Assembly (NCBI RefSeq): GCF_001941975.2
Contig: NZ_CP146991.1
Location: 3,345,001-3,409,000 of the forward strand
Direction of reading: 5' to 3'
DNA from: Sporomusa sphaeroides DSM 2875
Lineage (GTDB): Bacteria > Bacillota > Negativicutes > Sporomusales > Sporomusaceae
DNA length: 64,000 nucleotides
A program made the translations under genes and the position numbers. Within the stretch, counting starts at the first letter, position 1. Each line of letters opens with the position of its first letter. The notes below the pieces were generated by a model that was not told where the DNA came from, made no database searches, and saw only the letters and a list, made by a program, of their open reading frames with translations. Below are positions 1,585 through 37,144 of this stretch, one piece after another.

Positions 1585-1617
1585 ACACACACACCCCTCC
1601 TTAAAACACCGGCGCCA

Positions 1618-1780: not shown

Positions 1781-1789
1781 CATGAAAAA

Positions 1790-1862: not shown

Positions 1863-1877
1863 ATGGTCAACATAGTA

Positions 1878-4587: not shown

Positions 4588-4606
4588 ACTAACCTCCTGA
4601 AAACCT

Positions 4607-5548: not shown

Positions 5549-5566
5549 AAACGAGCTCCCCCTTTA

Positions 5567-6811: not shown

Positions 6812-6842
6812 GATAAAATCTCTCCTTATTTTTAAAAATGTA

Positions 6843-6930
6843 GGGGTGAGATTGCTTTGCCTTTGCTTGACAACAGATGAGATTGGTACCCTCCTGTAGC
6901 TATTGCAATATTGCGCAGCAATCTCACCCC
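6843..6930. repeat. 14-bp inverted repeat in the glmE-mal gap
   Basis: Perfect arms GGGGTGAGATTGCT (6843-6856) and AGCAATCTCACCCC (6917-6930), 60 bp apart. The core GAGATTGC/GCAATCTC is shared with the repeat at 1790-1862. Being inside the operon it would form a long stem in the mRNA. It could be a REP-like repeat or an mRNA-stability element. Confidence 0.5.
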
Positions 6931-6976
6931 CCGTTTTTTCTTAATTTACGATTTGGACGGCGTTCTTATATCCGGA

Positions 6977-8425
6977 TTACGGACGGCCTACCAGACGGCC
7001 TTTGGAGATGGCATAGATATCATCAATTACCATCTGGAAGCTTGCCGCACGGCCTTCTGCCTTGGCACGCTCAGCAATTTTGTCCTGGTGGAAAGCAACA
7101 ATATCAGGCGTGAACGGCAGGTTGCCAACGTCAAACAGGCGAACAGCGCCATTATTGTCGCGGGCAGGCAGGATTTTGTTCAGGCTGAATTTGCTTGGTG
7201 CAAACGGTACGTCAAGTACACCGGCTTCAAAAGCGCGTACAGTACCGATAGCATAGTCGCCGCCGCCCAATTCAAATACTTTGTCAAGAATGCAGCGAGT
7301 TTCGGCTTTAATCATGTTAATTTCAAGCTCCAGTTCGCGGGTCTGTGGGAATACCTGATCTTTGAGCATGTTGATCATTTGCTTGGTAGTCCTCAGGCCC
7401 ATAGCGTTGGCTTCTTTGGTCGGAATGCCGAGCGCTTCGTGCGGAGTCTTAACAATAACCTTCGTGGCTTTGGACAGAGCCGCAGCCGCAGCACCCCAGG
7501 AAATTACAGCGAAGGCTTTCGCTTCATCCTGCGGGAATCCGCCCATCCATTGATGGAAAACAGTGGTAAGAACCATATCCTGATAGCCATGTTTGGCCAT
7601 GTATTCTTCGCCCAGCTCTTCCAATGCTCTGATGGCAGCAATATCCTGCACCAGGTTACCGCACTGGCCATAGCCCAGGGTAATATTTTTTACACCCTGC
7701 TCGGCAGCCAGGATACCTTCAATTACAGCAACCGCATGGGAAATGCTTGGCGGTACCAAGGTACCTGTCAACGGTCCGAACGGCTCGCGGTTAATTTCGA
7801 TACCGTGCTCAGCATACAGACCGGTCAGACGGTCGCAATACTGCCAGTCAAAAATGGTTTTTTCCAGAGAAACGCTTTTTGCGTACGGGATATTGTAGGA
7901 AATACCGCCGCCCTCGTAAGAGGTGTAACCGGCAGCCATGGTAATTTCTGCTAACAGTCTGGCATCAGGAGTGCCATGACGAACCTGAAGCGCTCCGTCT
8001 ACGCTTTCCACTACGCGGCGAACGCCTTCTACACCATGGTTAACAGCCGGGAAGCCATTCAAAAGTGAACGACCGGCCTTGAGGCTTTCTTCGATGCCGT
8101 TTTGGGCTTCTTTGTATTGGTTTTGACGAGTGTAGCTGTCAATAGTCGAAGGCAGAAGATCAGCTTCCCCTTCTGTTCTAAGGAAGTTCAAGAGGTTGAT
8201 ATGCTCATCAATCAGAGCAACACCGGCACGCGGCTGAGTAAGGGTTTCCCCGTTTTTCTTAGCTTTTACCAACAGCTTGGCAAAATGACGCTTGGCCGGA
8301 ATAGTTTCCTGATATTTTACGCCTTCTTCAAAATTTACACCTTCACCAGTTGGCCAGGTTTTGAGAACTTCTGCGCGAATGGCATTAAATTCGTCAAGCG
8401 ACCACTTTTTATTCTTAAGTTCCAT
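6977..8425 (-). CDS. glmE: Glutamate mutase epsilon (E) subunit
   Basis: 482 residues, the normal size for MutE/GlmE. It is the glutamate-binding TIM-barrel subunit of coenzyme-B12-dependent glutamate mutase, which interconverts L-glutamate and (2S,3S)-3-methylaspartate. Recognisable segments include [18 protein letters not shown] (roughly 160-180) and [18 protein letters not shown]. It is 23 bp downstream of glmL, and its partner GlmS is two genes upstream. A long open frame antisense to this gene is a shadow. Confidence 0.97.
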
Positions 8426-8448
8426 GCTAAGTAGCCTCCTCTAATCAT

Positions 8449-9831
8449 TTATTTCGTTACGATATACTTTTTCATCATCCGTACAGCAACCTGCGGGTAT
8501 TCTTCTCCCAACAGGCCCATTGCGGACATGATATATTCTTTGTCAATAGGGAACCGGGCTTCTTTCGGTTTGAGCACCAGCGGATCGGCTTCATCAAACA
8601 ATATGCCTTTTAAAATTTCTTCCGGCTCGGGATTGTTGACAATAACCCCGCCTGTGCCAATTACTGCCGTCACTTTTGTCAAATCCTTGCCATGCTGGAC
8701 AAACGAGCTGCCCATTGGCGTAAAGTAGGTGATTAAGTGTCCGACATGCCTGTCCGCCCCCAGCCGCACACAGGCTTTGCCCATGGCAATTTCAATCCTG
8801 GCCTCGGCTTCGGTTTGCGGCAGGTGATCAATATCAGCTTCCACTTTTAACACATAGGCCGCAGCTTCTGCTTCGGTAACTCCGGCAAATTCGGCAATCA
8901 ACTCAGCTCCGGCTGCCTTTAACAGCGCTCCGGCACTGTAGCGCATACCCAGGTCGCCTTCGACCGTGCGCTTGCCAAACGGTTCAGCCAAACCTTTTAA
9001 GTTTACCCCGCCGACCGTCGGGTCGCCTTTGGCAATGGAATAGACATCAGTAGTTGCCCCGCCGATATCAACAACCATCAAATCACCCAGACCAGGCTCC
9101 TTGCCCGCTCCCTGACTTAAGAGCTCAGCGGCTCTAAGCACGGCAGCCGGTGTCGGCATTACCATACGGTCAACCATTTTATTGGCCCGGTTCAAGCCTT
9201 TTGCTTCGGTTATCCGCTTCAAAAAGATATCCCGGATCACGGCGCGGGCGGGCTCAATATTGAGTTCATCCAGCTTTGGCATAACATTTTCGGTAGGACG
9301 CACTACAGAAAGCTTTTCTGATAGAATTTTGACCACCGCCGGGGCTACCGATTTGTTGCCTGCCACGACAACAGGCACATCCAGCCCCAGTTCAGCGAGC
9401 ATCCTGGCATTATGCAAAATTACTTTTTGATTTCCGCCGTCGGTGCCGCCGGCCAAGAGAATGATGTCCGGCTTAAGTCCGGCAATTTCTTCAATCTCAT
9501 ATTCATTCAGTTCATGAGTAAATACCTTCAGCACCTTGGCACCGGCTCCCAAGGCAGCCCGTTTGGCTGCTTCAGCAGTCATCTCAGGCACCAGGCCGAC
9601 AGCTATCATTTTAAGCCCGCCGGCAGCGCTTGAGCAGGCAAGCACCTTCTCAAACTCCAGCTTGCCAGTCTTGGCAGTGAGTGCGGCTAATGCTTGATTC
9701 AAACCGTCCATGATATCTGTCTCGACAGTAGTAATACCTCTGGCAGTACCTAACACTTGCTCCTGTTCAACGTCTACTGCTGTAATTTTGGTATATGTAC
9801 TGCCAAAATCGATAAGCAAAACGTTATTCAA
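8449..9831 (-). CDS. glmL: Glutamate mutase accessory/reactivating ATPase GlmL
   Basis: 460 residues, ASKHA-fold protein of the MutL/GlmL family: N-terminal LLIDFGSTYTK phosphate-binding loop, LLAGGTDGGN and MVVDIGGATTDVYS. GlmL lies between glmS and glmE in glutamate mutase operons and is thought to be an ATP-dependent reactivase exchanging damaged cobalamin. Here it lies 16 bp after glmS and 23 bp before glmE. Intact, with no odd features. Confidence 0.95.
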   Translation of the reverse strand: MNNVLLIDFGSTYTKITAVDVEQEQVLGTARGITTVETDIMDGLNQALAALTAKTGKLEFEKVLACSSAAGGLKMIAVGLVPEMTAEAAKRAALGAGAKVLKVFTHELNEYEIEEIAGLKPDIILLAGGTDGGNQKVILHNARMLAELGLDVPVVVAGNKSVAPAVVKILSEKLSVVRPTENVMPKLDELNIEPARAVIRDIFLKRITEAKGLNRANKMVDRMVMPTPAAVLRAAELLSQGAGKEPGLGDLMVVDIGGATTDVYSIAKGDPTVGGVNLKGLAEPFGKRTVEGDLGMRYSAGALLKAAGAELIAEFAGVTEAEAAAYVLKVEADIDHLPQTEAEARIEIAMGKACVRLGADRHVGHLITYFTPMGSSFVQHGKDLTKVTAVIGTGGVIVNNPEPEEILKGILFDEADPLVLKPKEARFPIDKEYIMSAMGLLGEEYPQVAVRMMKKYIVTK

Positions 9832-9847
9832 AGCAAAGACCCCTTTA

Positions 9848-10264
9848 TTATTTCAAGTCCTCTTTCAAATCGGCAAGCACTTGCTCAGGCAGTGTGCCTG
9901 GCGCATATACTTTGTCATAGCCCATAGCAAGGAACTTTTTCTCAACTTCAGTAAAATCAGATTTACCAACAACCAGGTTACCGCCAACATACAGCAGAAT
10001 GTCTTCAATGCCGGCTTCACGGCAACGGTCTCTTAAACCACGGCAGTCAATTTCGCCGTGTCCATAAAGCGAAGCCACCAAAATTGCCTTGGCATCGGTT
10101 TCGATTGCCGCATTAACAAATTCTTCCTGAGGCACCAGCACCCCCAGGTTAATTACTTCATAACCGGCCGCTGTGAGAGCATGGTTGAGGATTTTGTTGC
10201 CGACTGCATGGCAGTCAGCGCCAATTACGCCTAAAATAACCTTTTCCTTGTTTGTCATCTCCAC
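9848..10264 (-). CDS. glmS: Glutamate mutase sigma (S) subunit, cobalamin-binding
   Basis: 138 residues, the usual size for MutS/GlmS. It has the base-off/His-on cobalamin motif DxHxxG as DCHAVG at 17-22, followed by SLYGHGE and YVGGNLVVG, which line the nucleotide-tail pocket. With GlmE it forms glutamate mutase. Its start overlaps the last base of the upstream GntR-type regulator gene (10264), so the regulator and enzyme genes are one transcript. An alternative start is the ATG at 10258. Confidence 0.96.
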
Positions 10265-11241
10265 TACTCCTTTGCTTTATCAGTCTCTGCTACCAACCGG
10301 CCGATGACCTGTTGGAGCGATCCCTGGTCTATTTCGTAGTAAAAAGTGATGATATCCTGTGTTTCTGCAGCTGCCTGGCGTACCATTTGCTTCATCGACT
10401 CGGCGGCAATAATGACCTTATACCCGGCTATACATTGCCTAACCTGCTCCCGTTCAGTCCCGGTACAGGCTTTCAGCCCAATACCGTTACAGCCAATCTT
10501 GGTCAGGAGACGATCAAGCGCATCCACAAATTCCTGTGTTTTAGCAACAACAGCCACCTCAGTACCAGGCTGCAGTCGGGCCAGCTTAATGACCGCTTCG
10601 AGATTGGGTACAGAAGCCACAGCCAGCAACTTGGCAGTATTGCCGAGCACCCCCGCAACAACCGACTGGTGTTCCGCCGTCGTGATCACCAGATCACAGG
10701 CGGCAAGAAATTCAACCTTTACCACACCGGCTAAGAGGTCTGACAGCACTACCGGTTCAAATTGCGCATGCGCCGTTTGACTGAGCTGAGCGATGAACTG
10801 TTCCACATATTCCAGGGTACAATCCACAACAGCCACCCTGAGCTGCCTGGTTGACAGTTCGCGTTCTTTGGCCCGGATGGCGGTAATGTTGGCAAACTGT
10901 TCCACAGTAAACCCCAGTTCAACCACCTGTACCATTGCCGCGTCAATAATTTTGAGCGCCCGTTCAATCCGGCTGCCTGCGACATCCGCGCCAGCCGCCG
11001 TTATATCTCCAGCCTGTCCGCGGACAAAAGTACCGCGTCCCTGCCGGGCCTCAAGAACTCCTTCAAGCAAAAGTTCCTTATAGGCAACACTGACGGTATT
11101 GCGGCTAATGCCCAGTTCTTCGGCCAAACTGCGTTCTGTCGGCAGCTTATCGCCTTTTTGGTAATAGCCTGTCTTGATTTTGTCCAAGATGTACGCTTTT
11201 ACCTGCAAATAAATAGGTATGCCAAGTTTTTGCACAATCAT
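10264..11241 (-). CDS. GntR-family regulator of the methylaspartate operon
   Basis: 325 residues. N-terminal winged helix (about 8-75, [21 protein letters not shown]... [31 protein letters not shown]) of GntR type, followed by a C-terminal domain of about 230 residues that I do not recognise as FadR, HutC or aminotransferase-like. It is the first gene of the glutamate fermentation operon and overlaps glmS by one base. Upstream there is a promoter and a palindrome (ATTGGATTAATCCAAT) placed to act as its operator, so autoregulated control of the operon by glutamate or a pathway intermediate is inferred. Confidence 0.9.
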
Positions 11242-25971: not shown

Positions 25972-26088
25972 ACTTTCCCCTCCTTAAAAATTGACTAAGC
26001 TTGCCAAACATGAATTCCACATTCCTTCTTTCAGCCTGGTCTTTGTCAATAATGAACAGGCAACGTATTACCTTAATATCATATTATC

Positions 26089-26117
26089 ATCATACCATTG
26101 AGTAAATAATCTGTCAA
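26089..26117 (-). promoter_or_regulatory. Promoter of the vor-ykvI-larA operon
   Basis: Leftward TTGACA (26117-26112), 17-bp spacer, TATGAT (26094-26089). About 50 bp around it is nearly the same as the promoter of ykvI copy 1. Confidence 0.75.
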
Positions 26118-26212
26118 TTGCGAAAGATATTATGATATTATTTATTTTCTTTTACATTTCAAAAAACAGTGCTCTCACGCACTATTTTAGCCTTCTCGCA
26201 AAACAAAAATAA

Positions 26213-26237
26213 GAAAAACCCCGCCGTAAAGGCGAGG
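26213..26237 (-). terminator. Terminator of the rph-rdgB-yfcE operon
   Basis: CCTCGCC-TTTAC-GGCGGGG followed leftward by TTTTTCTT, starting at the yfcE stop codon. Confidence 0.85.
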
Positions 26238-26720
26238 TTATAATTCCATAATATGTTCTTCAATTACACCATTTTCCTGAATATGCAAGATTCCGTAGCC
26301 CGGCCTGGAACCGCCCCGGGGCGCTCCCGGGCTGCCCGGATTAAACAGCAGCCGTCCGTCATGCCAGCCGCTATAGGGAACATGCGTATGACCGAAAACC
26401 ACGATATCAGCGCCATATTGGGCCCCCCACCAGACAAGCTCCTGCATGCCATACTTCACATTATAGCGGTGGCCATGGGTCAGCCAAATAGTTTTACCGG
26501 CCAATTCCGCATAGGCATCCACAGGCACAGCCGTCGTCCTGTCACAGTTTCCCGCCACCACCGTTACCGGCAAGCCGGTCAGTTCTGCCAGTTTCCAGCC
26601 ATCCTGAAAGTAGTCGCCGGCATGGAGCCAATGATCAACCGGACCGGCGGCGGCAATTACCTGCCGGAGTGCGGCTATATCGCCATGGGTGTCACTGATA
26701 ACGCCGATTCTCATGTTCAA
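26238..26720 (-). CDS. YfcE/MJ0936-family metallophosphoesterase
   Basis: 160 residues. Calcineurin-like motifs: GVISDTHGD, HAGDY, VVAGNCDR, LTHGHRYN and FGHTHVP. Phosphodiesterase of unknown physiological substrate. Overlaps rdgB by 29 bp. The rph-rdgB-yfcE order is a long-conserved Firmicute arrangement (rph-ysnA-ysnB in Bacillus). Start ATG 26720 or 26714. Confidence 0.93.
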   Translation of the reverse strand: MNMRIGVISDTHGDIAALRQVIAAAGPVDHWLHAGDYFQDGWKLAELTGLPVTVVAGNCDRTTAVPVDAYAELAGKTIWLTHGHRYNVKYGMQELVWWGAQYGADIVVFGHTHVPYSGWHDGRLLFNPGSPGAPRGGSRPGYGILHIQENGVIEEHIMEL

Positions 26721-27318
26721 GCGCCGCCAGTTGCTTCACTAATGCTTGTATCGCGCGGCCGCGATGGCTGATATTGTTTTTTTCCGCTGATGACATTTCT
26801 GCCAGTGTGCGGCCAAACTCCGGCACCAAAAACAGCGGATCATAACCAAAACCCTTACCCCCGCGCGGCTTGGAGAGAATAACCCCGTCCACTGTCCCTT
26901 CCGCGGTGAGCAGCACTTGCTCCGGCTTAGCCAGAGCAAGCACACAACGAAATCTTGCCTGCCGTTTTTCATCAGGTACACCAATTAAATGGGCCAATAA
27001 CTTTTTGTTATTATCTTCATCACCGGCGTGTTCGCCCGCATATCTGGCCGAATACACGCCCGGCGCTCCCTGCAGATAATCCACCTCTAACCCGGAGTCA
27101 TCGGCCAGGCAAAGCTTGCCTGTCAGCCGCGCGTAAAAGCTGGCTTTAGCGCAGGCGTTCTCGGCAAAGGTCACACCCTCTTCCGGTGCTTCCGGATAGC
27201 TCCCCAGGTCGGCCAATGAACTAACCTTATAGGGCAGTTCGCGTAACGCCTCTTTAAATTCGGCAATTTTGCCGGCATTTTTGGAGGCGACAATAATTTC
27301 AATCATGCTTTCCTGCAC
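26692..27318 (-). CDS. rdgB: XTP/dITP diphosphatase (RdgB/HAM1 family)
   Basis: 208 residues. IIVASKNAGKIAEF at the N-terminus, LADDSGLEVDYL and GFGYDPLFLVPEFGRTLAEM are the family motifs. Hydrolyses non-canonical purine nucleoside triphosphates to monophosphates, keeping inosine and xanthine out of DNA. Start is either GTG 27318, with GGGAGG 8 bp upstream inside the rph end, or ATG 27306. Lies 3 bp after rph. Confidence 0.95.
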   Translation of the reverse strand: MQESMIEIIVASKNAGKIAEFKEALRELPYKVSSLADLGSYPEAPEEGVTFAENACAKASFYARLTGKLCLADDSGLEVDYLQGAPGVYSARYAGEHAGDEDNNKKLLAHLIGVPDEKRQARFRCVLALAKPEQVLLTAEGTVDGVILSKPRGGKGFGYDPLFLVPEFGRTLAEMSSAEKNNISHRGRAIQALVKQLAALEHENRRYQ

Positions 27319-27321
27319 CGT

Positions 27322-28065
27322 TTATCCCTCCCGGCCTACTTTCCATGCCAACTGGCCCAGTGTTTCTTTTTGGATGTCCAGCAGAATGTCAATCCCCTGA
27401 CTGCCCACTGCAATCATTTCATTTAGCTGTGTTTGGCTAAAGGTTCCTTTTTCACCGGTTCCCTGCACTTCAACAAATTCACCGCTGCCGGTCATGACCA
27501 GATTCATGTCAACAACAGCCATGGAGTCTTCACTATAACATAAATCAAGATAAACTCCCTCAGGCATGACGCCGACACTCACGGCCGCCAAAAAGTCCTT
27601 GACCGGAAAGGGCTTCTGACTATCGCCCCAAATGCGGCTTACCGCATCAACCAGAGCTACAAACGAACCGGTAATGGCGGCTGTCCGGGTTCCGCCGTCA
27701 GCCTGCACCACATCACAGTCCAGCCAGATGGTCTTTTCCCCTAAGGCTTTAAGGTCAATAACACTGCGCAACGCCCGGCCAATCAACCGCTGAATTTCGT
27801 GAGTGCGGCCGCTTTGCTTGCCTCTGGCAGCTTCCCGGACATTGCGGCTCTGGGTGGAACGCGGCAACAGGGAATATTCGGCACTCACCCAGCCTTCGCC
27901 TGACCCTTTCAAAAATGGCGGAACCTTTTCTTCAATAGTAGCCGCACAAATCACCTTGGTGTCGCCAAACTCAATAAGCACCGATCCTTCGGCATATTTT
28001 AAATAATTGCGGGTAATTTTTATTTTTCTGAGTTCGCTGTTTGTGCGTCCGTCTGCTCTGGCCAT
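27322..28065 (-). CDS. rph: Ribonuclease PH
   Basis: 247 residues. [43 protein letters not shown] and [18 protein letters not shown] are the RNase PH signatures. Phosphorolytic 3'-exoribonuclease that trims tRNA precursors. Good ribosome site (GGAGGGCTTTTC). A MITE-like element lies 53 bp upstream, so the native link to upstream genes may be altered. Confidence 0.96.
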
Positions 28066-28117
28066 GAAAAGCCCTCCTAAAAAATATTAAAATATCGAAG
28101 ATTGGATTACAGTTGTT

Positions 28118-28280
28118 TAGTACCTTGCGTCACCTAACTATTTGGATTATATAGCAGTCTTTTTCCACCCTGCGTCGTTGTCGTCGCCTTACATATGTCC
28201 GATATGCGCGGCTCCTCCGCCTAGCAGGGCGAAAAAATCCTTACTATCTACTCTCAAATGTTAAGTGCCGCAAGGTACTA
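28118..28280. repeat. MITE-like palindromic element, copy 2
   Basis: 163 bp, ends TAGTACCTTGCG...CGCAAGGTACTA, same orientation as copy 1 (1618-1780). The inner part around ACATATGTCCGATATGCGCG is unchanged between copies, and the end stem differs by paired changes (ATCGC/GCGAC in copy 1, GCG/CGC in copy 2). It overlaps the 3' end of the deacetylase gene and supplies its last codons and stop. Confidence 0.88.
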
Positions 28281-29586
28281 GTATATCCTCCTGCTTATCC
28301 TGGATAAAGCAGCAGTCATGCCGCCCCGCTTGCCGCGCCTTATGTACCGCATCACGCGCCTGTGCACGGCAGGCCGGGCAGCTGTTGCGGGGGATAATGG
28401 CGGCAAATGCTGATTTCATCCCGAACGGGTAGCCCTGTGCCTGGGTGTCAATGAGCTGATAGCCATGACACCGGGGGCAAAGCCGCACCGTTTCCGTTTG
28501 CCGTTCCTGAATACCGCTGTCATCATAATAGATGTTCCGGCGTTGCTGCCACCAGCCTCCGGCCTTGGCGACGGCTTCGCGGCGCAACCTGTCCCGCCCC
28601 TGCCAAATGTCCTGCCACTCGGCTACCAGTTTGGCAATATAGTTGGTGGTTGCCACCGACTGGCGCGGGCACCGGGCATTATCCGGTTCAATTACCCGGC
28701 TATAGTCCAGACCTGCCATCGCCAAAATGATGCCGGTATTAACATAAGGCAGCGCGTCTTCAATCGAATAGCCGCCTTCCAGCACCGCAATATCGGCCTT
28801 CAGCTTTTCCGCCAGGCGGGCATACCCCTGGGCTGTCACCGCCATATTGGCGAGTGGATCACTATAATGATTATCCTGCCCGGCTGAGTTAATAATCATG
28901 TCCGGCCTGAAATCCTCCAGCATCGGCAGCACCAGCCGGTCAAGCACCTCATGCAGCCCCGCGTCGGTGGTGCCTGGCGGCAGCGGAATATTAACCGTAG
29001 AGCAGAAGGCTCCCGGACTGCCCAGCTCACTCATGGCGCCGGTTCCCGGATACAGGGTGCGTCCATCCTGGTGAAAGGAAATAAACAGCGTGTCCGGATC
29101 ATGATAAAAAATATCCTGGGTGCCGTCGCCATGATGGACATCGGTATCGACAATGGCGATGCGCTGCACCCCATAATGGCGGCGCAAATATTCCACCATA
29201 ACGGCCTCAATATTAATGGTGCAAAAACCCCGTGTACCATGCACTACCCTCATGGCATGGTGTCCCGGCGGCCGCACCAGGGCAAAGGCATTGGTCACCT
29301 CACGGCGCATCACGGCTTGGGCCGCGGCAATGGCGCCACCGGCGGAAAGCAGATGGGCATCGGTAATCAGGGATTCAATATTGGGCACACCGATGTGAAC
29401 CCGCTCAATATCGGCCAGTCCGGCAAGCTGCGGCCGGTATTCTTTGATAGCCGGCAAATCCAGCAGTCCTTCTTCCACAATTTGATCCCGGGTATAGAGC
29501 AGGCGTTCTTCCCGTTCCGGGTGAGTGGGGGTTATCGCCCAATCAAACGCCGGAAAAAATACTAATCCCAGCGATGCAGCCTTCAT
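28261..29586 (-). CDS. Histone deacetylase-family hydrolase with C-terminal zinc-ribbon-like tail
   Basis: 441 residues. Class II-like HDAC/acetylpolyamine amidohydrolase fold at about 5-310: RPPGHHAM, DTDVHHGDGTQD (zinc ligands Asp and His), INSAGQDNHYSDPL and EGGYS. The usual family length is about 300-375, so the tail of about 100 residues is an addition; it contains CPRC and CPAC pairs resembling a zinc ribbon. The last codons and TAA lie inside a MITE-like element, so the original C-terminus has probably been changed. The ATG overlaps the end of the oxoprolinase-like gene. Substrate unknown; deacylation of a small acylated amine or a protein is possible. Confidence 0.87.
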   Translation of the reverse strand: MKAASLGLVFFPAFDWAITPTHPEREERLLYTRDQIVEEGLLDLPAIKEYRPQLAGLADIERVHIGVPNIESLITDAHLLSAGGAIAAAQAVMRREVTNAFALVRPPGHHAMRVVHGTRGFCTINIEAVMVEYLRRHYGVQRIAIVDTDVHHGDGTQDIFYHDPDTLFISFHQDGRTLYPGTGAMSELGSPGAFCSTVNIPLPPGTTDAGLHEVLDRLVLPMLEDFRPDMIINSAGQDNHYSDPLANMAVTAQGYARLAEKLKADIAVLEGGYSIEDALPYVNTGIILAMAGLDYSRVIEPDNARCPRQSVATTNYIAKLVAEWQDIWQGRDRLRREAVAKAGGWWQQRRNIYYDDSGIQERQTETVRLCPRCHGYQLIDTQAQGYPFGMKSAFAAIIPRNSCPACRAQARDAVHKARQAGRHDCCFIQDKQEDILVPCGT

Positions 29587-31271
29587 AGTTCCGCCTCCCG
29601 CATTTGTACCGGCATCAACACACCAGGCTTGATCTGCAGCTTGCAGGTCATAATTTTCCCGATGGTGTTAAAACCGCGGATTAGGTTGAATTCTTCTTCG
29701 TACAGGCGTTCACTGCAGTCGGCGGCTTCCGCCATTCCTCCGGCCGCCGCCCGCTCTGCCAGATGAGTACCGGCGGCAGTCCAGGCATCCTGTAAGGTAA
29801 AGCGCCGTTTAGCAAACTCCTGGATAACGCCTAATTCCGGTACTGTATAAAAACCCTGCGCCGTATCGGCCCTGAGCGTAATTTCGGTTGTCGGCCTGGC
29901 AGCAGCGGCACCGACAGCATTGGCTACCATATGTCCCGGCGGTATCTGCCAGGGCAGTTCCAGCTGCTTGGCCACCAGCGGCGCAAGCCCGCTGGCCGCA
30001 CCACCTACCCCAATCAGCAATTCCGGTTTAAACGGCCGGCCTGCCACCAGTTCTTCCACCTTGTACACCGGTCTTGCCGCCTGTTCTGCCAGCATATCCT
30101 GCACTGCCTGACATACGGTGGCGGCGGCCAGCCGCAGCGTTTCCCAGGCAGCCTCTGCCGCTGTCTGCGTAGCCTCAGCAACCCTTTCCATCGCCTGCCT
30201 GGCCAGCCCGATGTCGCCATAGTCAATTAACCCGGCAACCCTAAGCGCGTCCGTCACGGCAGGCGCTAAGCCGCCATTGGCCATAGCCGGGCCGCAGCGC
30301 ATCGGGCCAACAGCCAGCAGGCCGTTTTCCCGGCGCACATAGCTGTCGCCGCCGATCCCCACCGAGCGCAGACAAAAAGAACGAACCGCCGTAGGATAAT
30401 CCTTCACCCTGGCTCCGTCCGGGGCAAATAACGGCATACCATGTTGCCATAAAGCAATATCGGTGGTGGTACCGCCCATATCCAGCGAGATGGCCGGTTC
30501 CACCGGCTTGGTCAAAGCCATAATCCCCAGCACGCTGGCTGCCGGTCCGGTAAAGATGGCCTCAACCGGCGTTGATTTGGCTGTCGTCAGCGGCAGCGTG
30601 CCGCCGTCAGCTTTGAGTATATATACCGGCGCAATAATATCCCGTTCAGCCAGAGCCGCTTCTATGGCTTGGGCAAAACGGCTGAAGATGCGCCAAACAG
30701 CCGAGTTATAGTAGGCTGAATTAATGCGCCGCAGGTAATTGAGCGAACCGGAGACTTGGGTGCCAAGTGTGATATGCTTGGGCTGCAGATACTTATTAAC
30801 CCAATCGGTTACCAGCTGCTCCTGCCGGGGATTACGCACCGCAAATTTGGCGGCTACGGCTGCCACCTCATGGTCCTCAAGCTTACGGCAAACGGCCGCC
30901 ACTTCTGCTTCTGCCGGACAGGCCTGTTCCCGCCCGCGATGGTCGGTATAACCTGACAAAAAGTGAGGTTCGCCGGGTATCAGCCCGGTTACATTCAGCC
31001 CCGGACCCGGCAGCAGGAATAGAGCTACTTTGTCGGTTTTCCCTTCCACCAGCGCATTGGTTACAATGGTTGTCGAAAGGGCAGCCCGCCGGATTTTTTT
31101 AGCATCAACCCCTGTAAGCACCTTGTCGATAACGGTAACAACCCCGTTTAGCAGCGACTGCCGGGTGGTGGGAGTCTTGGCCGCAGCCACAACCTGGCCG
31201 TCGGCAATAAGTACCGCATCGGTAAAGGTTCCGCCAACATCAATTCCCAATAACATGCCCTTCGCCTCCAA
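29583..31271 (-). CDS. Hydantoinase/oxoprolinase (HyuA)-like protein
   Basis: 562 residues. N-terminal GIDVGGTFTDAVLI and a central ISLDMGGTTTDIAL phosphate-binding pair, the ASKHA-type ATPase features of the HyuA/acetone carboxylase beta/5-oxoprolinase superfamily. Shorter than ATP-dependent hydantoinases (about 690). These proteins couple ATP hydrolysis to opening of an amide ring or activation of a small ketone. No HyuB partner is present; its neighbours are an HgdC-like activase and a deacetylase, so the substrate is open. 37 bp after the activase gene. Confidence 0.85.
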   Translation of the reverse strand: MEAKGMLLGIDVGGTFTDAVLIADGQVVAAAKTPTTRQSLLNGVVTVIDKVLTGVDAKKIRRAALSTTIVTNALVEGKTDKVALFLLPGPGLNVTGLIPGEPHFLSGYTDHRGREQACPAEAEVAAVCRKLEDHEVAAVAAKFAVRNPRQEQLVTDWVNKYLQPKHITLGTQVSGSLNYLRRINSAYYNSAVWRIFSRFAQAIEAALAERDIIAPVYILKADGGTLPLTTAKSTPVEAIFTGPAASVLGIMALTKPVEPAISLDMGGTTTDIALWQHGMPLFAPDGARVKDYPTAVRSFCLRSVGIGGDSYVRRENGLLAVGPMRCGPAMANGGLAPAVTDALRVAGLIDYGDIGLARQAMERVAEATQTAAEAAWETLRLAAATVCQAVQDMLAEQAARPVYKVEELVAGRPFKPELLIGVGGAASGLAPLVAKQLELPWQIPPGHMVANAVGAAAARPTTEITLRADTAQGFYTVPELGVIQEFAKRRFTLQDAWTAAGTHLAERAAAGGMAEAADCSERLYEEEFNLIRGFNTIGKIMTCKLQIKPGVLMPVQMREAEL

Positions 31272-31308
31272 ACAAAACCGGCTGTACCCGGCACTAAAAC
31301 TCTGTCAG

Positions 31309-32073
31309 TTATTTATCTGCTTTATATACGGCACAGCCAATCGCCCCATTGAGCTGGGGATGCTCGGGGACAATAACCTCTGCCCCCATTTCCCGGGTAA
31401 TAAATGTCTTGATGGCACTGCCCAACGCCACACCGCCGGTAAATACGATTTTATCGCTTTTGAGCGCACTCAGCATGGGTTTAATCCGTTTATAAATACT
31501 ATAGTTGACCCCGGCTGCCAGTTCAGCCGTAGTATACCCTTCCACCATTCGCCCGATGAGTTCCGATTCCCCGAAAATAGCGCAGGTAGCGCTAAGCTCT
31601 ACCGGATTTTCACTGTAATCGGCCAATTCTGCCAGCGAAATGTCCAGCACAGCTGCCATATTTTCCAGATAGCGTCCGGTACTGGCCGCACATTTGTCAT
31701 TGGTTTGAAAATCCACCATCCGGCCTTTGCGGACTTTGATGACTTTGCTGTCCTGTCCGCCTAAATCCAAAAGCGTAAAGTCTGTCAGTCCGGTCTGATA
31801 GCTTGCGCCCAGCATATGGGCCTTCAGCTCGGGAATAATGGTTGCGCCGACAATAGCAATGGTATTGCGGCCATAACCGGTGGCCGTCAGGCTGGTCACC
31901 GCCGGCAACCCCAGCGCCCCGAAGTCCACCGCCAGGCCCTTGTCTGTCCGCTGGCCATACTCCCGGTAAAACCTGGCTGTCTCATATACATTGGCGGCGG
32001 CAAGCTGTTTGGTGCCGGGATTCATAATGACCAGCTTCACACTACGGCTGCCCAGATCGATACCACATTGCAT
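31309..32073 (-). CDS. 2-Hydroxyacyl-CoA dehydratase/BCR-type activase (HgdC-like)
   Basis: 254 residues. ASKHA nucleotide-binding motifs GIDLGSRSVKLVI and LLDLGGQDSKVI, and the two cluster cysteines Cys128 (NDKCAASTGRYLE) and Cys164 (ATCAIFGESE), at positions expected for HgdC. The homodimer holds one 4Fe-4S cluster and uses ATP hydrolysis to push a low-potential electron into its partner. The partner is most likely the HgdB-like protein encoded 32 bp upstream. Confidence 0.92.
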   Translation of the reverse strand: MQCGIDLGSRSVKLVIMNPGTKQLAAANVYETARFYREYGQRTDKGLAVDFGALGLPAVTSLTATGYGRNTIAIVGATIIPELKAHMLGASYQTGLTDFTLLDLGGQDSKVIKVRKGRMVDFQTNDKCAASTGRYLENMAAVLDISLAELADYSENPVELSATCAIFGESELIGRMVEGYTTAELAAGVNYSIYKRIKPMLSALKSDKIVFTGGVALGSAIKTFITREMGAEVIVPEHPQLNGAIGCAVYKADK

Positions 32074-32105
32074 AAGCTTTGCCTCCTTCTAGTAGTCTGC
32101 CAAGA

Positions 32106-33098
32106 CTAACGCAGCATCTCCAGAAAGCTGTCAATCCGCAGCCTGGTTCTGGCATCTATTTTTCCGGGTTTATCCCCTTCAATGGTCAGAATCGGTATGT
32201 CCAGTTTCTCGCGTAAAATAATGTCCTCAATCTGGCGAAAACAGAAGCTTTGCACATAATGGACAATACCGTCCAGATTGCGCCTTTCTATCTCGGCCTC
32301 AATATCCTTAATCCGGCCAAATACACCGTACGGATAGGTATAAAGCCGGTACTGCTCAACAATATCGTCGGTAACAAACGGCATAGCAAACTGCCGCTGC
32401 ACTTCATTGTACACCACCCGGGCCCCCATAGTCTCCAAATAGGGGTATAAATCAGGAAAAATCGGCGGCACACCGATAAAGCCCAACCGGAGATCATCGG
32501 TATATTCGGCGGCACTCGCCGTCTTGGTCAGGAAAGCATCCACATCTGCCTCAAAAGCAGTCAGATCACTATTAAAATCACTGCAGCTTACCTGGTACAA
32601 ATGGTTATGGAAACCGCTAACCGTGTTTTCCTCCCAGGTTAGCCGGTCAATCTCAGCTACTTTCAGGCGCAGCTTATCTAACTGGCGTTTGACGGCAGCT
32701 ACCGCCTCCCAGTCGGTTCCCAGGGCGCCCATTAGCTTTTCCATTTGCAATTTCAATAAATCATAATCCCGGTCATACGGATAGGCAAAGGGAATGGTCT
32801 CAACCCCTGCCAGCTCATAGGTTTCCATCAATGCGTGAGTATTGCTGCAGTCGCCCTGGGTAACGGCAATGACCTTATCAATACCGTCACCGGTATTACC
32901 ATCCCGATTAACCACAATGGAATACAAGCCCTTGATCCAGCCGCAAATATTGCGGGGATACCCGGCCTCTTCGGCAGCTTCCACAAATTTTCCGGCTTCC
33001 GGGCTGGTAATAAATATATTGTTAAGGTCAACAGGGATATGCCCTGCCGCCAGAATAATTTCAACCGGCACAGTTGTTGTGATGCCGATGCGGGTCAT
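32106..33098 (-). CDS. HgdB/BcrC-like iron-sulfur protein (2-hydroxyacyl-CoA dehydratase family)
   Basis: 330 residues from ATG 33098. Family features include ITTTVPVEIILAAGHIPVDL at the N-terminus and cysteines Cys52 (NICGW), Cys84 (QGDCSN) and Cys286 (SFCFRQIED), at the spacing of the three cluster ligands of HgdB/BcrC subunits. Only one such subunit is encoded, whereas true dehydratases have two (HgdA and HgdB). A homodimer resembling the double-cubane cluster proteins is therefore possible; that is inference. It should accept electrons from the activase encoded next to it. A 15-bp-stem hairpin lies just upstream. Confidence 0.85.
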   Translation of the reverse strand: MTRIGITTTVPVEIILAAGHIPVDLNNIFITSPEAGKFVEAAEEAGYPRNICGWIKGLYSIVVNRDGNTGDGIDKVIAVTQGDCSNTHALMETYELAGVETIPFAYPYDRDYDLLKLQMEKLMGALGTDWEAVAAVKRQLDKLRLKVAEIDRLTWEENTVSGFHNHLYQVSCSDFNSDLTAFEADVDAFLTKTASAAEYTDDLRLGFIGVPPIFPDLYPYLETMGARVVYNEVQRQFAMPFVTDDIVEQYRLYTYPYGVFGRIKDIEAEIERRNLDGIVHYVQSFCFRQIEDIILREKLDIPILTIEGDKPGKIDARTRLRIDSFLEMLR

Positions 33099-33120
33099 AG
33101 TTATCTCGCCTCCAGACATG

Positions 33121-33153
33121 TAAGACAGAGGATAGCCTCTATCCTCTGTCTTA
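33121..33153. other. Perfect 15-bp stem hairpin before the HgdB-like gene
   Basis: TAAGACAGAGGATAG / CTATCCTCTGTCTTA with a 3-nt loop, between the CofE-like stop and the HgdB-like ribosome site. No T-run follows leftward, so an mRNA-processing or stability stem is more likely than a terminator. Confidence 0.6.
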
Positions 33154-33164
33154 TGGAAAGAATA

Positions 33165-33836
33165 TTATTGCGCGGCAGCTTTTTGGGCAACCAAACCATA
33201 GTTTTTAATAATAACAATCGGCGTTTTCTGACTAGCATTACCAAACGGGTTATCTATGAGAATCCGCGCCAGTTCGGCAGGGTCAAGCCCTTGCGTCACT
33301 CCCAGCACGGCCGCCCGCTTGAGGTCATTGACATCAGCCACCGCGGCACCATGGCACCCCAGCCGCTGTTTTATGGCTTCCGCCACCCCATGGGGGTCGG
33401 CTGGCCCGTACACCAGGTGCTTATCAAAAGGCGGCATCGTGCCGGTAACATCGTCAATCAGCGCTGTCTGCCCACCAGCCAGCTGGTAAAACAAACCGTT
33501 TTTCCCCACCAGTTTGCCAAGCATGCCAATGAACATCGACCAGGCTATCCGCCAGCTGCCTTCTGCATTCATGGCACTCTGCATGCCATAGGAGCTGGAT
33601 AAACTGCCTTCCTGCGGCACAAAGCGGCAAAGCACCCTGGCCAATAAGGACAGCGTCATCTCCTCCGGCCGCACAATTCGCCCCTGGGTAATGGCGACAA
33701 CACTTTCAGCCACAGTTACCACATCATGGGGACCAATATCCTCTTTGGCATATTTTTCAATAATATCAACAATATCATCTTTATCGGTAAGTATCCGGGT
33801 AGGCACCGGTTGTAGCGCTAGCGCCTGCTCAGTCAT
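33165..33836 (-). CDS. CofE-like coenzyme F420:L-glutamate ligase-family protein
   Basis: 223 residues. Segments [39 protein letters not shown] and a C-terminal [23 protein letters not shown] region fit the CofE-type gamma-glutamyl ligase fold. Bacteria of this kind do not normally make F420, and no cofC, cofD or cofG/H is seen, so a different amide-ligating or nucleotide-binding role is likely. 11 bp after the membrane-protein gene. Confidence 0.7.
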
Positions 33837-33847
33837 ATGTATTCCCC

Positions 33848-34390
33848 CTATCTGGCTGCAGCCTGTTCGCCGGCAGCAAGAGCCCTATGTATTTCGTCGG
33901 CCGTCATAACCAGCCGCTCTTTGTTTATATACCATGGACCGCGGGCAACCACCTGATAGACAATGTCAATAGGCATGTCTACCATATCGGCAAGTGCAGC
34001 CTTGATATCGCCTGATTTTGCCGTAAATTTCACCGTCAAAATAATCGAGCCGCCGGTATTCTTAAGAACAATGTAGGCTTCCCAGTAACCGTCACTCCGG
34101 TTAGCCTTGTCCAGCGTCAGCCGGGAATCAACCTCCACGGCGTCAAACTGTTCACAGGGCAACAAGTGCCGGGGATATACGTCCATTAAGGTACCGCCCT
34201 GGGTTCCATTATTGACAAAGGGAATCTGGCTCACAAAAGTTGCCGTATCCTCGGTGATGCCGGTCAGGCTGAAAGCGGTACGCTGGTCAACCACGAATTT
34301 GAAATTAGCATCCCCCTGGTTAGCGATAAACAGCCATATGCCAACCACCGCGCCTACCACAATAAGTAATAAAATAGCTAGAAACTCCAC
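33848..34390 (-). CDS. Single-pass membrane protein of unknown function
   Basis: 180 residues from a GTG at 34390, placed 8 bp after GGAGG; an upstream ATG would put that ribosome site inside the gene. One N-terminal transmembrane helix ([20 protein letters not shown]), then a soluble domain of about 150 residues with strand-rich stretches. No recognised motif. First gene of the block ending with the deacetylase and directly after murI. Confidence 0.7.
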
Positions 34391-34444
34391 ACTACTGCCT
34401 CCGTATCCGGGTATCATCGGACAGAAACCCTATAATTTAAACTT

Positions 34445-35266
34445 CTATCTATAATCCAATAAATTAACCAATTCAAACCTGAGAGAGAGTTCCTCCGCCC
34501 AGGGAAATTCAATAGCACCGGCGACAAACTGCTCAGCCCGCGGCAAATCGGCGGAAAAGCACAGCCGCACCCGTCCTTGCGCCCGCGTGGTAAGCTTGTC
34601 ATGATGGGCAAGTGTAGTACGCGCCTCGGCAGCCGTTTCTCTGGCCGGGTCAATAAGCACCACATCCGGACCCATAACCTGCCTGATCACCGGAATAATA
34701 AACGGATAATGGGTACAACCCAGTATCAAGGCGTCAATCGCGGCTTCCTTGAGTGGCAGCAGATAATCGGTAACCGCACTTTCCAGCTCAGGCCCAAAAA
34801 GCTTTCCCTGTTCGATAAGGGGTACAAGCCGGGGACAGGCCTGAACCGCAACCGTTGCCGCCGGTTCTTCGGCTTTAATTGCCTGGACATGTTTACCACT
34901 GGCAATGGTAGCCGCTGTAGCCATAACGCCAATGCGCTTGTTGCGGCTGGCAGCCAGTGCCGCCCGGGCACCATAGTTTACTCCTGTCAATAAAAAGGGG
35001 ACTTTGGTACCTGCTTGTTCAAAACCAATTGCTTTCATGGTATTGCAGGCAATAATCGCCAGCTTGACTTGCTGTGCAGAAAAGAAAGGTAGGATTTCAT
35101 GCAAGAATCGTAAAATTTCCGCAGGCGGCCGTGAGCCATATGGAGTCCGGGCAGTATCGCCAAAATAGATAACATCTTCTCCCGGCAATAAGTTAAGCAC
35201 TTCCCGGAGAACGGTAAGCCCACCCAGGCCGGAATCAAAAATCCCGATTGGCGCACTATCTCCCAT
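34445..35266 (-). CDS. murI: Glutamate racemase
   Basis: 273 residues. IGIFDSGLGGLTVLREV at the N-terminus and the two catalytic cysteines in IACNTM and LGCTHYP. Makes D-glutamate for peptidoglycan. In many Firmicutes racE/murI lies just before rph (racE-gerM-rph-ysnAB); here a six-gene block lies between them. Confidence 0.96.
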   Translation of the reverse strand: MGDSAPIGIFDSGLGGLTVLREVLNLLPGEDVIYFGDTARTPYGSRPPAEILRFLHEILPFFSAQQVKLAIIACNTMKAIGFEQAGTKVPFLLTGVNYGARAALAASRNKRIGVMATAATIASGKHVQAIKAEEPAATVAVQACPRLVPLIEQGKLFGPELESAVTDYLLPLKEAAIDALILGCTHYPFIIPVIRQVMGPDVVLIDPARETAAEARTTLAHHDKLTTRAQGRVRLCFSADLPRAEQFVAGAIEFPWAEELSLRFELVNLLDYR

Positions 35267-35339
35267 GACGCCACCTCCTATCTACTTAGTCTTTCTTGGC
35301 GCCATATATAATATGCAGGCAAAGGGTACACGAACAGGT

Positions 35340-35741
35340 TTACGGGAAAGGCGTACTGAGTTTGGCAAAATACTTGTCCGGCAAACGGATAATCCGGCCT
35401 TGTCTGTCCGTAAAGGCGTTTTGGGTACGCCCGGTAGCCAGCAGCAGGCCGTCATGCTCTCTCAGCACCCGGTAAGTAAAAATCATTTTTACTTTTGATA
35501 CTTCAGCCAAAACAGCTTCGATAAGAATACAGTCATCAAATTTAGCCGAAGCCCGGTATTTGCACGCCACATCGGTAATCGGAAAAACAATATCCTCATC
35601 CAGCATATCGGTAAGCAAAATGCCAATCTGCCGCAGATACTCCACTCTGGCCATTTCAAACCAGCGAAAGTAATTGGAGTGGTGTACCACTCCCATCAAA
35701 TCGGTTTCAACAAATCTTACTTTATCCCGTACGGTAATCAT
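35340..35741 (-). CDS. Hot-dog fold acyl-CoA thioesterase (YbgC/4HBT family)
   Basis: 133 residues from ATG 35741 (GGCAGGAT 9 bp upstream). VRFVETDLMGVVHHSNYFRWFEMARVEYLR carries the family's active-site Asp-x-x-Gly-x-x-x-His pattern. Hydrolyses acyl-CoA, often short-chain or 4-hydroxybenzoyl-CoA. 73 bp upstream of murI. Confidence 0.9.
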   Translation of the reverse strand: MITVRDKVRFVETDLMGVVHHSNYFRWFEMARVEYLRQIGILLTDMLDEDIVFPITDVACKYRASAKFDDCILIEAVLAEVSKVKMIFTYRVLREHDGLLLATGRTQNAFTDRQGRIIRLPDKYFAKLSTPFP

Positions 35742-35796
35742 ACGCACATATCCTGCCTTATTTATTGATAAAAAGCTATACTTGCTGTTAGGATAA

Positions 35797-35815
35797 GAAA
35801 AAAAGCACGCTATCA
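35797..35815 (-). terminator. Leftward hairpin and T-run upstream of the thioesterase gene
   Basis: Leftward GCATGCT-GAT-AGCGTGC followed by TTTTTTTC and one copy of the recurring TCCTAACAGCAAGTATA motif. No minus-strand gene lies directly upstream, so its role is unclear. Confidence 0.5.
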
Positions 35816-35943
35816 GCATGCTGGTAGAAGAATTTATGTATTTATTGTACTCTTGATTGGACATTTTTGTCAATGCCAGATTGCGCTGCCGGGGGCAAAC
35901 TCCCTCTAGCGGTAACGTAAATTTAACCTTACAATAAAATTAA

Positions 35944-35958
35944 TGAGAATAATTCTCA
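35944..35958. promoter_or_regulatory. Fur-like box 1
   Basis: Perfect palindrome TGAGAATAATTCTCA, 19 bp upstream of the -35 box of the DUF2325 gene. It resembles Fur-family (Fur/PerR/Zur) operators, which have a GATAATnATTATC core. Confidence 0.65.
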
Positions 35959-35976
35959 AATTTTCCATACATGCTA

Positions 35977-36005
35977 TTGACGTGACGTATCATTCACTTT
36001 ATAAT
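35977..36005 (+). promoter_or_regulatory. Promoter of the DUF2325 gene
   Basis: TTGACG (35977-35982), 17-bp spacer, TATAAT (36000-36005); near-consensus sigma-A promoter lying between two Fur-like boxes. Confidence 0.75.
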
Positions 36006-36010
36006 TTAAT

Positions 36011-36025
36011 TGAGAATAATTTTCA
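36011..36025. promoter_or_regulatory. Fur-like box 2
   Basis: TGAGAATAATTTTCA, one mismatch from box 1, over the predicted transcription start. A metal-loaded repressor here would block the promoter directly. Confidence 0.6.
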
Positions 36026-36042
36026 TTTAAGGGGTGGCAATC

Positions 36043-36324
36043 ATGTCCGTATTTATCGTAGGTGCTGACGACTTAGGCAATATTCCCGCCAATCTCCTGA
36101 AAGCAGGCGTTAAATCAATGAAGCACTTCAAAGGACGCAAACGGGTGTCTGAAGATATTCAGATACCGGCAGACACTGATTTAGTATTAGTCTTTACCGA
36201 TTACTTATCTCATAATATTGCCGAACTGGTAAAACGCAAAGCCAAGGAAGCAACACTGCCTGTAGTATTTTCCAAGCGCTCATGGAGTCATCTTCAGGAA
36301 AAACTCCAGCCCTTCATGCAATGA
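36043..36324 (+). CDS. DUF2325 domain protein, probably metal-regulated
   Basis: 93 residues from ATG 36043. MSVFIVGADDLGNIPANLL, then a Rossmann-like pattern ending in KRSWSHLQEKL; DUF2325 proteins are small and uncharacterised. It stands alone, with a strong promoter framed by two Fur-like boxes, so induction on iron (or other metal) shortage is inferred. A 22-bp-stem hairpin follows. Confidence 0.85.
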   Translation: MSVFIVGADDLGNIPANLLKAGVKSMKHFKGRKRVSEDIQIPADTDLVLVFTDYLSHNIAELVKRKAKEATLPVVFSKRSWSHLQEKLQPFMQ

Positions 36325-36331
36325 GCGAGCC

Positions 36332-36381
36332 AAATAGTTAAGCCTGGATAAATAGTATGATTTATCCAGGCTTAACTATTT
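36332..36381. terminator. Terminator after the DUF2325 gene
   Basis: Perfect 22-bp stem AAATAGTTAAGCCTGGATAA(AT) with a 6-nt loop; AT-rich base of the stem in both directions. Confidence 0.75.
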
Positions 36382-36452
36382 GCCGCTTTAGGTAGGACTA
36401 AGAAAATGCTGAAGCGCGCAAAACATGTATACATCCTGTTGGACAGAAAGAA

Positions 36453-36472
36453 CCTCCTGCAATTGCAGGAGG
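36453..36472 (-). terminator. Leftward hairpin downstream of the 40-residue membrane peptide gene
   Basis: CCTCCTGCAATTGCAGGAGG followed leftward by TTCTTTCTGTCC, which belongs to the recurring post-hairpin motif. Probably ends the transcript of the small ORF at 36610-36732. Confidence 0.5.
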
Positions 36473-36609
36473 CCATAAAAGAAATGTATGTCAAAGAAAG
36501 AAGAAGAGGGAATGGCATTGCTGCCTTTCTTGGTTTAAGTTTATATCAATTACTGTTATTTGTCAATAATGATTATCCAAAATATTTCAGTGTCTTAGCC
36601 ATTGACAGC

Positions 36610-36732
36610 TTATGCCAGCAACACTGCCAGATAAACGATACCGGCAAAAACCATCAGGCTCCCTCTTAGCGGCCATACCCGTGCTTCCGGTTTGCCGGCC
36701 TGCTGTTTTGTTGAGTTTTGAGCTAGTAACAT
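36610..36732 (-). CDS. Small single-helix membrane peptide (40 residues)
   Basis: ATG at 36732 behind AAGGATG (9 bp). The N-terminal half is polar (NSTKQQAGKPEARVWPL) and the C-terminal half is one hydrophobic helix (SLMVFAGIVYLAVLLA). No homologue recognised; it resembles the many short membrane peptides that assist or regulate larger membrane proteins. A hairpin 138 bp downstream on the same strand could terminate it. Confidence 0.5.
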   Translation of the reverse strand: MLLAQNSTKQQAGKPEARVWPLRGSLMVFAGIVYLAVLLA

Positions 36733-36874
36733 CAATCTCACATCCTTGTCTCAATTAAATATAATTACTAATTAATATTGATTGTATTTTACCATAATTT
36801 ATGCTGCATTACAAGCCTGTACAAAAAAATACCCGGCAACATCAAGTCACCAGGACAGGCAAGCAGCGGAAATA

Positions 36875-37144
36875 TTATGGTTTTTTCTTATTGGCCGCAG
36901 GTGCGACATGGGAAAACATCCTTATAACCCAGAGAAGTATAATGGCTCCGGCAGTACTTGCAATGATGGCTCCGATGGTGCCATATGTGGTTATTCCCAA
37001 GAAGCCGAATAGATATCCGCCAATAAAAGAACCGACGACGCCTGTTGCCAGGTCGCCCCAGAGCCCAAATCCCCCGCCGCGTGAAATCATCCCGGCCAGC
37101 CAGCCGGAAATCAAGCCAATGGCCAAAAACCAAATCAATTGCAT
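36875..37144 (-). CDS. GlsB/YeaQ/YmgE-family stress-response membrane protein
   Basis: 89 residues, three hydrophobic helices with the family's glycine pattern: IGLISGWLAGMISRGGGFGLWGDLATGVVGSFIGGYLFG. Small general-stress membrane proteins of unknown mechanism. Stands alone; ribosome site AAGGAGT 7 bp before ATG. Confidence 0.92.
   Translation of the reverse strand: MQLIWFLAIGLISGWLAGMISRGGGFGLWGDLATGVVGSFIGGYLFGFLGITTYGTIGAIIASTAGAIILLWVIRMFSHVAPAANKKKP

Follow-up and report, generated by a model that had tools for sequence, protein, structure and literature searches.

The gene block and the HgdB/HgdC pair

The stretch of DNA analysed here, hereafter the window, comprises 64,000 nucleotides of the 5.0 Mb genome of Sporomusa sphaeroides DSM 2875 (contig NZ_CP146991.1, positions 3,345,001 to 3,409,000). 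Between murI (34445-35266) and rph (27322-28065) it carries six minus-strand open reading frames (ORFs) which, read from murI, specify a protein called here mem, a CofE-like protein, an HgdB-like protein, an HgdC-like activase, a HyuA-like ATPase and a histone-deacetylase-like (HDAC-like) protein. The successive gaps from murI downwards are of 27, 11, 45, 32, 37 and -4 bp, and 195 bp separate the last gene from rph. This order had been proposed from a sequence-only reading of the window, and both the ORFs and the Pfam and NCBIfam matches agree with it. Our main concern is the third and fourth genes, hgdB and hgdC. On comparative genomic grounds, and with a probability that we put at about 0.88, their products would constitute an ATP-dependent [4Fe-4S] enzyme reducing preQ0 (7-cyano-7-deazaguanine) to preQ1 (7-aminomethyl-7-deazaguanine), i.e. 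a non-orthologous replacement of QueF in the synthesis of queuosine, a tRNA base.

The HgdB-like protein (32106-33119, minus strand), the proposed catalytic subunit, matches PF06050 with 122.6 bits (cut-off 28.4), and the HgdC-like ATPase/activase (31309-32073, minus strand), its proposed electron donor, matches TIGR00241 with 181.8 bits (cut-off 125.4). The start of hgdB that is common to the homologs lies probably at 33098; residues are numbered here from the longer ATG at 33119. Three cysteines of the HgdB-like protein, Cys59, Cys91 and Cys293 (the Cys52, Cys84 and Cys286 pointed out in the sequence-only reading), are invariant in all 57 aligned sequences (56 taken from the 80 loci, plus that of the window), and they align with cysteines in the five HGD-D paralogs of the same genome. 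From what is known of the family, we presume that this triad holds an iron-sulfur cluster. A fourth, Cys179, is a cysteine in 54 of the 57 sequences, some relocated copies being without it. The two activase cysteines singled out earlier, Cys128 and Cys164, also proved invariant, in 29 of 29 sequences (the window and 28 others). The alignments exclude 3 of 80 HgdB and 3 of 70 HgdC sequences, in which a stop interrupts the match span. An AlphaFold model of the HgdB-like protein (mean pLDDT 89.2) superimposes on chain B of BzdNO (8s02_B) with a Z score of 32.0 (rmsd 2.8, 318 aligned), on DCCP (7yzm_A) with 31.9 (rmsd 2.5, 322 aligned) and on HadBC with 30.6 (rmsd 3.0, 319 aligned), and Z does not exceed 6.0 for structures outside the HgdB family. 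Score, fold (Z 30-32) and cysteine triad thus place the protein in the PF06050 superfamily, as score and two conserved cysteines place its partner among the TIGR00241 activases. No further HGD-D gene occurs in the block, and the genome has its remaining HGD-D matches elsewhere, so that the protein is a single subunit, as had been supposed, without the second catalytic subunit that adjoins HgdB in 2-hydroxyacyl-CoA dehydratases of the HgdAB type. None of the proteins of the block shows homology to QueF (PF14489) in a Pfam search at E 0.001.

Among 200 genomes of Negativicutes, the class concerned, 39 have a homolog of the HgdB-like protein, those of the 38 genomes other than its own being at 66-85% identity. 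From the phylum, Bacillota, 398 genomes were drawn, of which 69 have HgdB; complete copies all score at least 415 bits, and whatever else matches at E 1e-15 is fragmentary. The S. sphaeroides genome encodes five more full-length HGD-D proteins, which have only 16-20% identity to the HgdB-like protein. Judged from these sequences, the pair is a sharp orthologous family which can be separated from its four neighbours. A scan of GTDB contigs yielded 221 HgdB relatives, and the counts out of 80 loci given below refer to the best 80 of these 221, among which are Sporomusa, Pelosinus, Desulfosporosinus, relatives of Desulfotomaculum, Pelotomaculum, Heliobacterium, Thermincola and others. No relatives were found on IMG/VR viral contigs, searched with exact peptide patterns only, or in phage records.

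As to the four neighbours of hgdBC, all on the minus strand, mem (33848-34417) has a hydrophobic N-terminal stretch, noticed by eye, and belongs to no known family, Pfam and NCBIfam profile searches giving zero matches. The CofE-like protein (33165-33836) matches PF01996 with 37.5 bits (cut-off 25) and has the fold of the F420 gamma-glutamyl ligase: its model aligns with CofE (2phn_B) with a Z of 15.6 over 186 residues, and a phmmer search of PDB sequences gave a best E of only 0.37. The HyuA-like (hydantoinase/oxoprolinase A) ATPase (29583-31271) matches PF01968 (150.1 bits) and PF05378 (92.4 bits), and the HDAC-like amidohydrolase (28261-29586) matches PF00850 (232.3 bits) and ends with CxxC pairs visible by eye. 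Elsewhere in the window, 538-11241 on the minus strand seems to encode the methylaspartate route of glutamate fermentation together with a GntR-type regulator; MutE was recognized by profile (PF06368), and GlmS, MutL, methylaspartate ammonia-lyase and citrate/citramalate lyase subunits by eye.

Relation to QueF and to the queuosine genes

Of the 398 genomes drawn from the phylum, 69 contain HgdB and 111 contain QueF, and not one has both (Fisher p = 1.6e-11, a value that serves only as a guide since the genomes are related and such tests overstate their independence). The Pfam cut-off of 22 bits for QueC admits PP-loop paralogs, and for that reason a stricter limit was set, a match at E 1e-12 or better. 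Thus defined, QueC is present in 126 genomes of the draw: 62 have HgdB only, 61 have QueF only, none has both and three have neither. Two of these three (G212 and G513) are credited with QueC on weak partial matches of 61-62 bits, and the third (G452) is 63% complete and belongs to the same genus as a carrier of HgdB, G429. If the partial QueC hits of G212, G513 and G245 are set aside, there are 61 genomes with HgdB only, 61 with QueF only, none with both and one with neither (n = 123). Partial QueC-like matches, of 55-62 bits and resembling a separate QueC paralog, were seen in G212, G245, G313 and G513; G313 also has a full QueC. The 123 QueC-positive genomes to which either HgdB or QueF could be assigned span 47 families, four of which (f38, f48, f67 and f165) contain both types, in separate genomes. 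Association with the que genes is evident as well, 62 of the 69 carriers having a QueC match. QueF was found without a QueC match in 50 genomes.

The step concerned was assigned with a set of 80 chosen genomes, of which 53 are carriers and 27 are not; the 398-genome draw serves as the unbiased test. The 53 carriers are 48 of the 69 carriers of the draw, S. sphaeroides included, and five from the class set. All 80 genomes, and thus all 53 carriers, have QueA. QueH is found in 31 carriers and QueG above cut-off in 19 others, which makes 50 of 53, neither being above cut-off in G203, G231 and G470. A QueC match of at least 129 bits exists in 46 of the 53. QueF above cut-off, in contrast, occurs in none of the carriers versus 12 of the 27 non-carriers, including all eight non-carriers of the class; seven carriers have QueF matches of 20-22 bits, below the cut-off of 27.3, which we take for putative paralogs of GTP cyclohydrolase I. 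By their gene content, therefore, most carriers are predicted to make preQ0 and to finish queuosine from preQ1 without the known enzyme in between, and since they have queA and queG or queH but no QueF, the missing step would be the reduction of preQ0. The same figures dispose of the idea that HgdBC is an alternative epoxyqueuosine reductase in place of QueG/QueH, which would suit the clustering with queuosine genes taken alone; it was rejected because the carriers have QueG or QueH, and we consider it practically without likelihood.

Physical linkage is found at some loci. We inspected 20 further regions, taken mostly around lower-scoring matches of the 398-genome draw; 14 are at murI and/or rph and six elsewhere. 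Two other sets, of 15 and 5 regions, were hand-picked. In four of the six regions away from murI and rph (L149, L150, L151 and L152), queC, queD and queE come after hgdB and hgdC, and one of the four also has GTP cyclohydrolase I. At L164, from G231, a queuosine-precursor transporter (PF02592/TIGR00697, 190.1 bits) lies directly upstream of hgdBC, the match spans being 17 bp apart, and at L153, from G232, a QueT transporter (PF06177) lies directly downstream, at 52 bp; the QueC search gave only paralog-like matches in these two genomes. A search of plasmids added Ilyobacter polytropus, a member of the Fusobacteriota, with the order hgdB-hgdC-queD-queE-folE-queC and gaps of at most 13 bp. Seven loci thus show hgdBC clustered with queuosine genes, namely L149-L153, L164 and that of Ilyobacter. 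Two cobalamin riboswitches (Rfam) were noticed on the opposite strand at L153, 7938-9163, just upstream of hgdB-hgdC-queT.

In the majority of the 80 loci hgdB stands where it does in the window. It has murI and/or rph in the stretch examined in 74 of the 80 loci, across many lineages of Bacillota, and for this reason the position looks ancestral for hgdBC; the sequence-only reading, which took the block for an insertion between murI and rph, is not borne out. Most of these loci have hgdBC without the other four genes, all six being present in 18 and mem together with cofE in 21. Outside the Negativicutes a frequent order is murI-hgdB-hgdC-(beta-lactamase-fold protein)-(fumarase alpha, beta)-rph-itpA-yfcE, and hgdB is preceded, in Desulfosporosinus and several other cases, by genes for glutamate mutase and methylaspartate ammonia-lyase. 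At L060, L062, L069, L095, L097, L161 and L168, hgdB is directly 3′ of glutamate mutase E or methylaspartate ammonia-lyase; MutE was seen, and GlmS and MutL were not, within the stretch examined at L095, L097 and L168. The distance between hgdB and hgdC, where hgdC was found, has a median of 20 bp and reaches about 4.6 kb (L116, L233-L236).

The module formed by the other four genes was seen mainly in Negativicutes. Apart from the window, the 29 class loci examined all have mem, cofE, hgdB and hgdC, and 28 have hyuA, the contig ending at that point in the remaining one. Natural losses are instructive here. Three relatives that possess QueF and no HgdB (G005, G111 and G002) keep the order ybgC-murI-mem-cofE-hyuA-hdac-rph without hgdBC, in the place of which the matches to cofE and hyuA are separated by 98 to 195 bp, and no remnant of hgdB is detectable at that locus at E below 1. 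One of them, G005, shares its genus with a carrier, G024. In another QueF-positive genome, G127, an open hgdC is preceded by a decayed hgdB (L209, 11198-11347, tblastn E 3e-10) of which about 50 C-terminal residues persist, with an internal deletion; this may be a fossil of the proposed replacement. G044 and G018 also have the four genes and no hgdBC. Conversely, L055 and L056 keep mem, cofE and hgdBC and lack hyuA and hdac. Because four genes stay when hgdBC is lost, hgdBC is on this genomic evidence one unit and mem-cofE-hyuA-hdac another, and the latter has no part in the proposed preQ0 reduction.

The proposed reaction and its alternatives

Comparative genomics argues for membership of hgdBC in the queuosine pathway and for its replacement of QueF; the activity, the type of cluster and the choice between free base and tRNA as substrate are inferred. 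That the substrate would be preQ0, a nitrile, follows from the complementarity of hgdBC to QueF. By analogy with its protein family, HgdC would draw electrons from ferredoxin or flavodoxin, hydrolyse ATP and deliver low-potential electrons one at a time to an oxygen-sensitive [4Fe-4S] cluster, to which the three cysteines of HgdB would be the ligands. An open iron of this cluster could then bind the nitrile nitrogen, and stepwise reduction by four electrons would convert preQ0 to preQ1 in place of the NADPH-dependent QueF. The invariance of just three cysteines, together with scores far below the cut-off of the double-cubane model NF040772, suggests that the cluster is not a double cubane but a single [4Fe-4S] cluster in which one iron is open. 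HgdB/HgdC is probably a second, unrelated class of biological nitrile-to-amine reductase, driven by ATP and distributed across Bacillota and at least one member of the Fusobacteriota.

Several observations weigh against this proposal, besides the relatedness of the genomes mentioned above. Since NADPH suffices for QueF to carry out the reduction, thermodynamics does not demand that it be driven by ATP. Seven of the 69 carriers in the draw have no QueC match and would need to salvage preQ0, for which an adjoining transporter was seen in only two. The activase gene was not found in 10 of 98 distinct loci (L064, L068, L075, L084, L099, L108, L111, L112, L117 and L118; L119-L148 repeat 11 of L039-L118) although at least 2.4 kb downstream were examined, and it was likewise not seen near hgdB at L227 and L229. 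Linkage to queuosine genes is exceptional: in the stretches examined, none of the 110 loci L039-L148 contains queC, queD, queE or folE above 60 bits, and no queuosine gene was seen at L220 and L086, two long stretches with relocated copies away from murI and rph. A preQ1 riboswitch is absent, at Rfam gathering scores, from 23 loci (7 + 16), and positions 26000-37000 of the window gave just two chance-like miRNA matches with Rfam at E up to 1. Independently of this question, it was observed that L068 has a CofE-like homolog (44% identity) near hgdB, and that at L220 (6941-13328), from G241, a genome with no clear QueC, hgdBC is flanked on one side by a YjeF-type NAD(P)HX repair gene and on the other by tryptophan synthase genes, with an ACPS-family gene nearby.

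The alternative that survives best concerns the order of steps only: TGT would insert preQ0 into tRNA and HgdBC would reduce the tRNA-bound nitrile, thus replacing QueF after insertion. This fits the comparative evidence equally well, and some bacterial TGTs accept preQ0. However, clustering with free-base transporters and synthesis genes mildly favours the free base, and the model comprises one HgdB-type fold and no domain beyond it; neither point is decisive. Free preQ0 is likelier, and we hold reduction on the tRNA to be unlikely.

Another possibility is that the exclusion between HgdB and QueF merely reflects lifestyle, strict anaerobes being opposed to other bacteria. The named carriers do belong to genera known as anaerobes, and the controls E. 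coli and B. subtilis have QueF. But lifestyle does not explain why, among genomes without QueF, HgdB is present in 62 of the 65 that have QueC versus 7 of the 222 that lack it, nor the fact that operons combining hgdBC with que genes exist in two phyla, nor the losses within Negativicutes, one of them inside a genus. This explanation is thus highly improbable.

Even less can be said for the two explanations drawn from gene neighbourhood. The sequence-only reading saw in the block one pathway of six genes, in which ATP-driven reduction of a cyclic amide, or of a similar compound, would be followed by deacylation. The genes are indeed compact and occur all together in 18 of the 80 loci, but this low number, the persistence of the four others without hgdBC (G005, G111, G002, G044 and G018), the occurrence of hgdBC elsewhere without them, sometimes beside queuosine genes, and the loci L055 and L056 that do without hyuA and hdac speak for two systems. 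A single pathway was rejected on account of the loss of hgdBC while the four remain, and we give it almost no chance. The substrate indicated by the complementarity to QueF is preQ0 instead of a cyclic amide. What stands of the earlier interpretation is a lone HgdB-like protein which, with its activase, is probably an ATP-driven low-potential reductase, and of which we found no description. A function of HgdBC in glutamate/methylaspartate metabolism, for instance serving glutamate mutase or acting on mesaconate, could be imagined from the fact that in 18 of the 80 loci less than 300 bp separate the end of methylaspartate ammonia-lyase or MutE from the hgdB that follows, that fumarase alpha is present in 17 of the 80 stretches and that the window has MutE some 24 kb away; it was rejected because the co-occurrence is patchy, the 200-genome class draw containing MutE without HgdB (e.g. 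G002, G010) and HgdB without MutE (e.g. G049, G074, G009), and as it leaves the exclusion with QueF unexplained we regard it as hardly credible.

Comparison with known systems

QueF is the textbook nitrile-to-amine reductase of primary metabolism. If reduction of preQ0 by HgdBC is confirmed, ATP-driven iron-sulfur chemistry would also perform nitrile reduction, and a lone HgdB-type reductase would gain a defined natural substrate. The QueF gap would be filled in roughly one half of those drawn genomes that have QueC: the 62 genomes having QueC and HgdB and no QueF, which would otherwise be misread as unable to make preQ1, would have their path completed by HgdBC. It would also provide a nitrile-reducing biocatalyst independent of NADPH and amenable to electron paramagnetic resonance (EPR) and crystallography.

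In the literature that we searched, there was no report of an alternative preQ0 reductase or of this gene set or locus, and nothing linking queuosine, QueF or preQ0 to HgdB-type proteins, most subscription journals being outside the search. Passages of two papers assign the reduction of preQ0 to QueF and mention no alternative (PMC11130926, PMC6593275), and QueF is described as using NADPH and forming a covalent thioimide at a cysteine (PMC5372742). QueF would share with HgdBC the proposed reaction and the position in the pathway, and the two exclude each other across the 398 genomes, but the families are unrelated, HgdBC being a pair made of an iron-sulfur protein and an ATPase.

Close in architecture are the double-cubane cluster protein DCCP and DCCP-R (6eno, 7yyl and 7yzm), which also have a single HgdB-type subunit with an activase, and whose fold is recovered with a Z of 31.2-31.9. 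Enzymes of this type reduce small substrates with multiple bonds. However, identity to the HgdB-like protein is about 21%, and the latter scores 45.9 bits with NF040772 (double-cubane cluster reductase) against a cut-off of 350; four homologs, two of them from the queC/D/E loci, reach 24 to 63 bits and also miss the cut-off. The three invariant cysteines were judged too few to provide the ligands of a double cubane. The fold is likewise common to HadBC (3o3m, 3o3n; Z 30.5-30.6), BzdNO (8s02; 32.0) and MbdON (9g87; 30.1), and the activase family is common to the 2-hydroxyacyl-CoA dehydratases and benzoyl-CoA reductases. But these are two-subunit enzymes acting on CoA thioesters, whereas the HgdB-like protein has one subunit and its proposed substrate is a heterocyclic nitrile without CoA.

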